Assembly (NCBI GenBank): GCA_903907075.1
Contig: CAIVMQ010000113.1
Span: forward strand, 1 to 64,000
Source: an uncultured Bacteroidia bacterium
GTDB taxonomy: Bacteria > Bacteroidota > Bacteroidia > Bacteroidales > Prolixibacteraceae
DNA: 64,000 bases
Direction: 5' to 3'
Shown here piece after piece: positions 15,515 through 18,347 of the stretch. Position 1 is the first letter of the stretch; the number at the start of each line of letters is the position of its first letter. The translations under genes and the position numbers were made by a program. The notes under the pieces are model-generated. The model was not told the origin of the DNA, searched no databases, and worked only from the letters and a program-made list of their open reading frames with translations.

Positions 15515-16282
15515 ATGCGAAACTATATTCTTTCAGAAACAAATTGGAAGGCAGTAAAACAGACAGACTTTCAGCTGGCTGTCTTACCATGGGGAGCCAC
15601 CGAGGCTCATAATTACCATCTTCCATATGGCACCGATACTATTATTGCAGGGCGTATCGCAGAGGCGGCGGCCCAATTAGCCTCTAATCGTGGTGGAAAG
15701 GTAATCGTCCTGCCCACAATTCCGTATGGAGTTAATACTGGTCAGCGTGACATAACACTCGATATGAATTTAAATCCGAGTACTCAACTGCTTATTCTTA
15801 AAGATTTAATTACAGTATTAGATCGGCAAGGAATATTTAAGTTGGTGATTCTAAATGCGCATGGGGGAAATGATTTTAAGCAGATGATTAGGGAACTAAA
15901 TCTTGAATTTCCACAAATGTTTATTTGTCAATGTGATTGGTTTAAAATTTCGGGGGCTTCAGATTATTTTGAAGATATGGGTGAGCATGCCGGTGAAGTT
16001 GAGACTAGTTTCATGCAGTATTTAACCCCTGAATTGGTGTTGCCACTTCATGAAGCCGGTGATGGTAAGGCAAAGGTATTTGCAGTTAATGCGCTAAATG
16101 AATCATGGGCATGGGCTGAACGAGAGTGGTCCAAGGTTACTAAGGATACTGGAATTGGCAATCCGGCTAAGGCGAATAAAGAGAAGGGGGAGGCATTTTT
16201 TACGTTTGTAGTTGCCAAAATTGGGGAATTTCTCTTTGAGTTAACTGTAATAGACTTATCAGCAATGTACCGCGACAAGTAA
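15515..16282 (+). CDS. Creatininase family protein
   Basis: 255-aa ORF; LPWGATEAHNYHLPYGTDTIIAGRIAE, LNAHGGNDFKQMIRE, DMGEHAGEVETS. Confidence 0.92.
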   Translation: MRNYILSETNWKAVKQTDFQLAVLPWGATEAHNYHLPYGTDTIIAGRIAEAAAQLASNRGGKVIVLPTIPYGVNTGQRDITLDMNLNPSTQLLILKDLITVLDRQGIFKLVILNAHGGNDFKQMIRELNLEFPQMFICQCDWFKISGASDYFEDMGEHAGEVETSFMQYLTPELVLPLHEAGDGKAKVFAVNALNESWAWAEREWSKVTKDTGIGNPAKANKEKGEAFFTFVVAKIGEFLFELTVIDLSAMYRDK

Positions 16283-16309
16283 AAGTTTTTAGGTATTGGC
16301 ATAAAACAC

Positions 16310-16343
16310 AAATGGGAACTACTCTTTCAAGTTGTTCCCATTT
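16310..16343 (-). terminator. Hairpin at the 3' end of the candidate ncRNA, shared with the convergent creatininase gene
   Basis: AAATGGGAAC / GTTCCCATTT 10-bp stem; minus strand continues GTGTTTTAT. Confidence 0.6.
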
Positions 16344-16850
16344 CGTCGCTGATAAATTGCTTTATCTGCGGCGTCAGACTACGGTTATCATGGTTGGCTG
16401 CTTTTTACCGCTTTCCTGCTTACGCATTACAGCGATTACTTTCGCAACCCATCGCTTTTGGATTCGGCTGTTTAGAACCTTACCCTCTTGCTGTTCCTTC
16501 GGTTCCCCTTGCGGTCGACCTTCCAGAACGGAGTGCCTCTAGATATGCAGGGTGGTTCATCTCTTTCGATCTGCCTTCTGCTGCATGAAACATATCGGCC
16601 TTACAGCCTCTTTGTTTCTCGGATTACCTTACAAAACTTTCGTTCCTTGTCTCCTCCGACCTTCGACTCAACCTTCTAATGAACGACTAGCGTTATTTCC
16701 GGCTGATTGTCCGATTGGATCACCTCCTCTCGTTCAACCTCTGACTCCTCTGATGCGCAAACCCTAAAGTTTGACCGATCCGGATCCTTACTCAACTAAG
16801 TGTCTCTCTCCGTCTCCACATCTTCAAAGTAACCTTTTATCGCTTATCTG
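16310..16850 (-). ncRNA. Candidate large structured non-coding RNA, family not identified
   Basis: No convincing protein in any frame. GC-enriched and purine-rich on the minus strand. GNRA-capped hairpins on that strand: GATAAA-GCAA-TTTATC (16351-16366), TGC-GTAA-GCA (16417-16426), AGCGA..TTGC-GAAA-GTAA-TCGCT (16431-16456), ACAA..AAC-GAAA-GTTTTGT (16631-16650). Promoter upstream and hairpin at the 3' end. Confidence 0.65.
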
Positions 16851-16856
16851 ATATTT

Positions 16857-16888
16857 CAAATATACTACAGATAGTACCCCGAATGCAA
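16857..16888 (-). promoter_or_regulatory. Bacteroidetes-type promoter for the candidate ncRNA
   Basis: Minus strand TTGC (16885-16888), 20 nt, TATATTTG (16857-16864). Confidence 0.6.
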
Positions 16889-17171
16889 CTATTTCATCAT
16901 TTTTGTATCAACAATGTATCAACCTTTAATTAACATAAATTATGAACAATTGTTTATACTGTAAATCCATTTAAGTATATGCAAATAAGGAGCTAACGAT
17001 TTTTTACTTCGGATTATTTTAATTGCTGCTTCTTTCTGGTATTGCAGATTTTAAAAATAACAGTAGATAAATAACAATCATCAGGAAGATTTGGATCTTT
17101 TAAAATGCGCAATAAACCATAAGCGACAAGATAACCGTACAACTGAATCTGAGATGAAACCTTGTGAATGC

Positions 17172-18347
17172 TTACTCAGTAGATATATTTCCTACCGGAG
17201 CATACATTCGAACTTCATCACGTGTTATTGATTTAGTACACAAAATAATTAACCGTTCAATTACATTGCGAAATTCTCTGATATTTCCCGGCCATTGATG
17301 GTTTTGTAATTCTTCAAGAGCTTCAGGTTCGATCTCTTTAGGGGGTTGGCCGTATTCGGAGCAGATCATCTCAATAAAGTGTTGTGCCAATAGGGGGATA
17401 TCTTCTTTTCTGCTTTCAAGCGAGGGGACTTTGATAAGGATTACACTTAGACGGTGGTACAAATCTTCGCGGAAATTACCATTGCGGATCTCTTGATTAA
17501 GATCTTTATTCGTGGCAGCAATGACCCTGACATTAACTTTAATGGGGCTATCGCTCCCTACCCGAGTTATGATATTTTCCTGCAGTGCACGTAATACTTT
17601 TGATTGTGCCGAATAACTCATGTCTCCTATTTCATCCAAGAAAAGTGTCCCGCCATCAGCTTGCTCAAATTTGCCTTTGCGTTGCCTGATTGCTGAGGTG
17701 AAGGCCCCTTTTTCGTGCCCAAATAATTCACTCTCAATTAATTCAGAAGGAATAGCCGCGCAGTTGACCTCTATAAATGGGGCCTCCGAACGTGCAGAGA
17801 GCTGATGCAGTCGACGCGCGACAAGCTCTTTCCCTGTGCCATTAGCACCCGTAATAAGAACTTTGGCATCCGTGGGGGCAACGCGATCGGTCATCTCAAT
17901 CACTTTTTTTATTGGCAGTGATTCCCCTATGATCTCATACTGTTTGTTGATTTTTTGTTTTAATACAAGGGTCTCTTTAACCAGCAGCGTTTTATTACCC
18001 GCATTTCGAATGGTAATTAATAATCGGTTTAAGTCAAGAGGTTTAACGATAAAATCGAATGCCCCCTTTTTAATTGCCTCTACGGCTGTGTCAATATTCC
18101 CATGCCCCGATATCATAACGACTGTTGTTTCTGGCTTGAGCTCGATGATCTTCTCAAGCACCTCTATCCCATCCATCTCAGGCATTTTAATGTCGCAAAG
18201 GATAATGTCATAATCTGTTGCTTTTGCCATCTCAAGTCCCAAAGCCCCATTCTCTGCAACCTCAACGGCATACCCTTCAAAGCCTAAGATCTCCTTTAAG
18301 GTATTTCGGATGCTCCGCTCATCATCGATAACCAATATCTTTACCAT
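17172..18347 (-). CDS. NtrC-type sigma54 response regulator (receiver plus AAA+), no evident C-terminal HTH
   Basis: 391-aa ORF; receiver DYDIILCDIKMPEMDG, GANGTGKELVARRLHQLSARS, GAFTSA, ESELFGHEKG; ORF ends shortly after NHQWPGNIREFRNVIERLIIL. Confidence 0.92.
   Translation of the reverse strand: MVKILVIDDERSIRNTLKEILGFEGYAVEVAENGALGLEMAKATDYDIILCDIKMPEMDGIEVLEKIIELKPETTVVMISGHGNIDTAVEAIKKGAFDFIVKPLDLNRLLITIRNAGNKTLLVKETLVLKQKINKQYEIIGESLPIKKVIEMTDRVAPTDAKVLITGANGTGKELVARRLHQLSARSEAPFIEVNCAAIPSELIESELFGHEKGAFTSAIRQRKGKFEQADGGTLFLDEIGDMSYSAQSKVLRALQENIITRVGSDSPIKVNVRVIAATNKDLNQEIRNGNFREDLYHRLSVILIKVPSLESRKEDIPLLAQHFIEMICSEYGQPPKEIEPEALEELQNHQWPGNIREFRNVIERLIILCTKSITRDEVRMYAPVGNISTE

Follow-up and report, generated by a model that had tools for sequence, protein, structure and literature searches.

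Large structured RNAs in bacteria and their relation to the locus

Large structured RNAs of unknown function are rare in bacteria, and those that have been solved brought unexpected biology. Among the described examples, ROOL (659 nt) and GOLLD (>800 nt) are heavily folded noncoding RNAs of unknown function, whose genes lie in phages and prophages close to tRNA islands (PMC12286853). OLE RNA is about 600 nt long, has a complex fold and an unknown biochemical role, and is present across many species of a group; it occurs mainly in Bacillota, binds known proteins and is localised to the membrane (PMC9723947, PMC12265935). The raiA motif RNA, or ModT, was found in Bacillota and other phyla (PMC11706538). 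For the Bacteroidales, Bacteroidales-1 (RF01693) has been described as a noncoding RNA candidate of about 180 nt (Weinberg 2010, PMC2864571).

We analyzed a locus in a 64,000-nt stretch of DNA from an uncultured member of the Prolixibacteraceae; this whole stretch is called the window in the following. The RNA predicted there resembles ROOL and GOLLD in being large, heavily folded and of unknown function, and GOLLD also has one constant and one variable region. In contrast to both, it is chromosomal in Bacteroidia and absent from viral contigs, no tRNA was found within the 64-kb window, and neither sequence nor covariance-model matches connect it to either family. With OLE it shares the size, the complex fold, the unknown role and the wide presence in a group, but it does not match the OLE Rfam model and has no known partner. 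The raiA/ModT RNAs are likewise a widely conserved structured noncoding RNA class, but show no Rfam match to the window RNA. Bacteroidales-1 is a noncoding RNA candidate of the Bacteroidales as well; it measures, however, only about 180 nt and does not match the window RNA. The window RNA falls into a loose, function-poor category of large structured RNAs. When "large structured trans-acting noncoding RNAs" is taken as the working category, the RNA shows a covarying multi-helix structure over hundreds of nucleotides, and it has a promoter and terminator of its own, both as predicted signals, in a variable gene context.

Searches of Rfam 15 with the window and its homologues returned no family at the gathering threshold, and lax thresholds gave only chance matches to miRNA, snoRNA and similar models. 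Membership in a known Rfam family was rejected for the window and 34 related loci at both the gathering and the E-value thresholds, and low-scoring matches to animal and plant RNAs were ascribed to chance. RNase P RNA (RF00010) was rejected, since RNase P sits at C26:18594-18977 (E 5e-79). For a group II intron there was no Rfam match and no reverse transcriptase among the adjacent genes. Bacteroidales-1 was rejected because its model matches C95:29130-29310 and not the window or the homologous loci. This match in the same genome (G000:C95:29130-29310) is itself below threshold, with 45 bits at a cut-off of 60, and probably represents a divergent Bacteroidales-1 member. As no known family matches, we call the RNA class new. 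A text search of the literature found no description of the window RNA, the supplementary lists of motif surveys being outside its scope, and the main texts of three published surveys (PMC2864571, PMC11109978, PMC8632094) gave no sign of a comparable large RNA.

Extent and noncoding character of the RNA gene

The RNA locus is flanked by a creatininase gene (15515-16282, plus strand) and a gene for a sigma54-dependent response regulator (17172-18347, minus strand).

16304-16852, minus strand: large structured noncoding RNA gene (predicted transcript, ~550 nt), based on homologues of the same extent in genus and family and on covariation

The ends (~16304 and ~16852) were inferred from the positions of the promoter and the terminator. 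An earlier reading of the window, made from the sequence alone, had placed an RNA of ~540 nt in the interval 16310-16888. The proposal was confirmed, with its extent corrected to ~16304-16852.

The same reading had seen no plausible protein, and we come to the same result with the homologues. When the longest closed ORF of each copy is taken, the median is 33 aa on the RNA strand and 42 aa on the other strand, and only 45 of 365 gaps relative to the window are multiples of three. Neither ORF lengths nor this frame test of the gaps revealed a coding signal across homologues. A protein gene or pseudogene was rejected on the basis of the frame-breaking gaps and the short ORFs. The shift in composition was also recovered, the GC skew of about -0.34 over 16550-16849 corresponding to a purine-rich minus strand. 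The assignment to the minus strand was re-examined by counting GNRA-capped hairpins with stems of at least 4 pairs, with dinucleotide shuffles as a control. Five such hairpins lie on the minus strand of the RNA region in the window and none on the plus strand, in keeping with the original call. In 61 homologues the mean was 2.34 on the RNA strand versus 0.10 on the other strand (shuffles 0.51). Folding compared with shuffled sequences gave a z of -4.15 on the minus strand and of -2.74 on the plus strand.

The sequence-only reading had named what would refute an unassigned structured RNA of ~540 nt on the minus strand: a known Rfam class, missing homologues or covariation, or descent from a decayed gene or mobile element. 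Those of these points that were checked all came out favourably. There was no Rfam match at any sensible threshold, homologues are abundant and covary strongly, and nothing indicated a decayed gene or a mobile element. We therefore regard it as practically certain that the locus represents a real class of structured RNA, a judgement that is made on sequence evidence with expression untested.

Conserved structure and covariation

The consensus structure consists of three domains that are closed by a long-range helix, P1.

16740-16853, minus strand: 5' domain, a multi-helix junction covered by covariance model R1 (R1 match E 3e-25)
16535-16739, minus strand: middle domain, whose sequence and length vary between genera in the alignments
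16372-16534, minus strand: 3' domain covered by covariance model R2, with several covarying hairpins that carry GNRA or UUCG loops
16841-16851, minus strand: 5' strand of P1, UCAGAUAAGCG, followed by the near-invariant loop GAUAAAAGG (consensus structure; kept as far as another order)
16374-16386, minus strand: 3' strand of P1, AACCGUAGUCUGA, pairing with 16841-16851 in the 61-sequence alignment (kept as far as another order)
16351-16366, minus strand: hairpin GATAAA-GCAA-TTTATC between P1 and the terminator, covarying (alignment columns 525-540, z 4-7)

In P1, the consensus UCAGRU-N-AGC pairs with GUARYCUGA. An asymmetric internal loop adjoins the helix, with GAUAAAA opposite AYAAUAAC, and is near-invariant. 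At its base P1 has near-invariant strands, GAGCGAUAAAAGG opposite CAYAAUAACNGUA.

The main covariation alignment contains 61 sequences with a mean identity of 52%, and its consensus has 120 predicted pairs. At these pairs 88.6% of the alignment cells are canonical, compared with 30-45% when the partners are slid by 1-3 columns. Changes on both sides were observed in 78 of the 120 pairs. G-U combinations (689) exceed A-C combinations (191), and this identifies the minus strand of the window as that of the RNA. Mutual information calculated from the same alignment without a structure gave its highest ranks to nested canonical pairs. For the 5' domain, an independent alignment had 24 of 26 pairs changed on both sides, and none of 500 shuffles reached any of five measures. 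Because P1 varies little, its outer pairs rest partly on conservation. Covariation did not reveal convincing non-nested pairs that would indicate pseudoknots or intermolecular contacts; the candidates resemble clade effects.

The local hairpins noticed in the sequence-only reading are present, although the TTGC-GAAA-GTAA hairpin is a local detail that is not common to the family. The longer GATATG/CATATC pairing (16542-16596) was not borne out as conserved, and the alignments support GAAAC/GUUUC and UGCAG/CUGCA there instead.

Promoter, terminator and upstream repeat

The following signals delimit the gene.

16857-16864, minus strand: -7 promoter element TATATTTG (Bacteroidota consensus TAnnTTTG)
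16884-16891, minus strand: -33 promoter element TAGTTGCA (alignment of copies)
16906-16923, minus strand: direct repeat GTTGATA-N4-GTTGATA upstream of the promoter, a possible regulator site
16301-16343, minus strand: terminator hairpin AAATGGGAAC...GTTCCCATTT followed by GTGTTTT (alignments; in nearly all distant loci examined)

A promoter directly upstream had been proposed before, and the -7 and -33 elements agree with it. Among 83 distinct copies, TAnnTTTG lies directly upstream in 67 and TAnnTTT in 73. The -7 element takes one of two adjacent distances in these copies, and TTG is found within the -33 region in 74 of the 83. The 10-bp hairpin that had been placed just downstream exists as well (16310-16343), but it is the transcript's own terminator and hence part of the gene. 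Generic sigma-70 and terminator scanners gave no hits at the RNA locus. These programs assume an E. coli-type consensus and a T-run directly after the stem, so their blanks are not evidence against a promoter or terminator of the Bacteroidota type. The RNA gene thus has its own Bacteroidota-type promoter and intrinsic terminator as far as such signals, and not transcription, can tell.

The direct repeat upstream of the promoter is the sole match in the window (0.01 expected), and elsewhere in the genome there is one further match, which lies within an ORF. Of 88 copies, 29 have a similar repeat at about -72 (GTTNATA-N4-GTTNATA, 11-base period), compared with 0.18 in shuffles. The half-sites of the repeat in the window (GTTGATACATTGTTGATA, 16906-16923, 11-bp period) are slightly DnaA-box-like (TGTKNATA).

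Distribution among Bacteroidia

Within the genus, 15 of 18 genomes have copies that BLAST recovers at 70-80% identity. They are mostly full length, and several stand in tandem, for example on G001:C133 at 38711, 39654 and 40552 and on G008:C92 at 33265, 34292 and 35226. Copies in these genomes are often located at contig ends, where repeats break assemblies. A profile of the genus copies reaches other genera across the whole length of the RNA. We also scanned 85,488 species genomes with a 23-base motif from the 5' end and obtained 62 loci. The rest of the RNA is present in 60 of them, all in Bacteroidota, and the named taxa include Draconibacterium orientale, Mariniphaga, Prolixibacter, Mangrovibacterium, Tangfeifania, Gaoshiqia and Sunxiuqinia. 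Two loci in Calothrix carry the motif by chance, the rest of the RNA being absent.

Of 141 genomes of the Prolixibacteraceae, the R1 model matched 117, among them 90 of the 104 of high quality; 17 of the 23 genera are represented. In one genus of the family, g12, none of the four genomes (G028, G496, G497, G498) matches, two of them being single-contig; the RNA may have been lost or may have diverged there. Across the order, R1 was found in 31 of 395 sampled genomes, so that most of them are without a match. In other families of the order R1 gave weak matches, which the independent R2 model confirms by matching downstream on the same strand. As a specificity control, a sample of 398 genomes from the phylum was searched, and only the window's own genome matched. 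A degenerate pattern of the 5' core was found in 38 of 390 genomes of the order and in two genomes of another order of the same class; these two also carry the 3' core and the terminator. Phage and plasmid records contained no similar DNA beyond chance hits. Two pattern hits in viral contigs were rejected, as they lack the promoter and the 3' core, and viral contigs hold no genuine copy.

Gene neighbourhood

Neighbouring genes were named by sequence recognition, and only those of the window were checked against Pfam. In the genus, the sigma54 regulator gene usually adjoins the RNA. In a group of uncultured Bacteroidales (L066, L069, L071, L075, L076, L079, L083, L098, L108) the RNA tends to lie downstream of rplQ and an enolase gene and/or upstream of a UbiD-like gene, and in Draconibacterium and Mariniphaga genes for a spermidine-type decarboxylase or a fucosidase adjoin it. 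Comparison of the lineages did not identify a neighbour universal to the RNA copies. That neighbours differ between lineages favours action in trans.

Proposed function and alternative explanations

Taken together, a new class of trans-acting large RNA with a scaffold role like OLE, ROOL or GOLLD is the best explanation and in our judgement a probable one, its function being inferred without expression data or a known partner. The class itself is well supported by the analysis, whereas the scaffold mechanism is a leading guess, with oligomerisation and partners untested. Acting in trans, the RNA would scaffold a ribonucleoprotein or an RNA-only particle. A shared partner would bind, or an active core would form, at the near-invariant strands of the P1 base; the lineage-specific interior, stabilised by its GNRA and UUCG hairpins, would form the body of the particle; and tandem copies would give a higher dosage. 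The likeness to OLE, ROOL and GOLLD lies in the size, the many tetraloops of the fold, the division into a constant core and a variable body, and the extra copies. As covariation gave no sign of a pseudoknot or intermolecular contact, the step to a particle or oligomer rests on analogy alone. A more specific proposal remains tentative, and we lean slightly against holding it: an undescribed RNA machine of the Bacteroidia, whose universal core would lie at the closing helix and would carry exchangeable bodies of ~210 to ~1030 nt, the near-invariant internal loop of this core serving either catalysis or the binding of a conserved partner. In one lineage of another order a ~107-nt module is present up to four times, as would be expected of a modular scaffold or self-assembling particle.

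The RNA might instead regulate in trans, either as a 6S-like regulator of RNA polymerase or as a base-pairing sRNA whose folded body would be of unusual size. A separate promoter and terminator would suit such a role, as would the regulator-like direct repeat upstream of a third of the copies, and target-specific parts could reside in the lineage-specific interiors. However, it is the structure and the P1 base that are conserved, and not a single-stranded, exposed seed; an antisense sRNA is not usually this long or this close to universal; and Bacteroidales-1, a noncoding RNA family of ~180 nt, is matched separately in the genome. We consider a regulatory RNA unlikely, but worth keeping in mind. 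A ribozyme, with the conserved internal loop of P1 as active site and peripheral domains stabilising the core, strikes us as rather improbable. The near-invariant loop (5' GAUAAAA / 3' AYAAUAAC) and the exchangeable GNRA-rich periphery do resemble large ribozymes, but the RNA does not match intron, RNase P or self-cleaving families, stands free between unrelated genes, and no reverse transcriptase, endonuclease or exon-like flanks were seen.

There is very little room for a cis-acting leader or trailer. It could be read from the usual adjacency of the sigma54 regulator in the genus and from the often same-strand upstream gene elsewhere; against this stand the separate promoter and terminator, the tandem copies and neighbours that are wholly different between genera. 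Finally, a decayed protein gene, a mobile-element remnant or a chance structure can be given almost no credence. Open frames do occur in the window, but covariation refutes a decayed gene or chance structure, and the fixed promoter spacing and frame-breaking gaps speak against them too. As to a mobile-element remnant, phage, plasmid and viral collections contain no similar DNA beyond chance hits.

The RNA is near-universal across a family of which some members (Draconibacterium, Mariniphaga, Prolixibacter, Mangrovibacterium) are in culture. Its location is chromosomal, its ends are clear, its near-invariant core carries an exchangeable body, and its alignment is deep enough for structure work. 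Cultured hosts, clear ends, the deep alignment and the layout of core and body make partner and function directly testable.

Length of the variable interior

The distance from the 5' to the 3' core ranges from 211 to 578 nt across 83 copies. One outlier (L057, G020:C51:147800-150300) has a core-to-core distance of ~1030 nt, about twice the usual, with both ends and the terminator conserved. In the two genomes of another order (G726 and G606) the core-to-core span is ~540 nt. Their loci, L178 (1490-2050) and L179 (1490-2050), contain an internal module, TTTGAGACGGGYAACCGCAGAARTRC. This module is repeated four times in the interior of L178 with spacings of 108, 112 and 102 nt (~107 nt apart), and three copies of a related module were found in the interior of L179.
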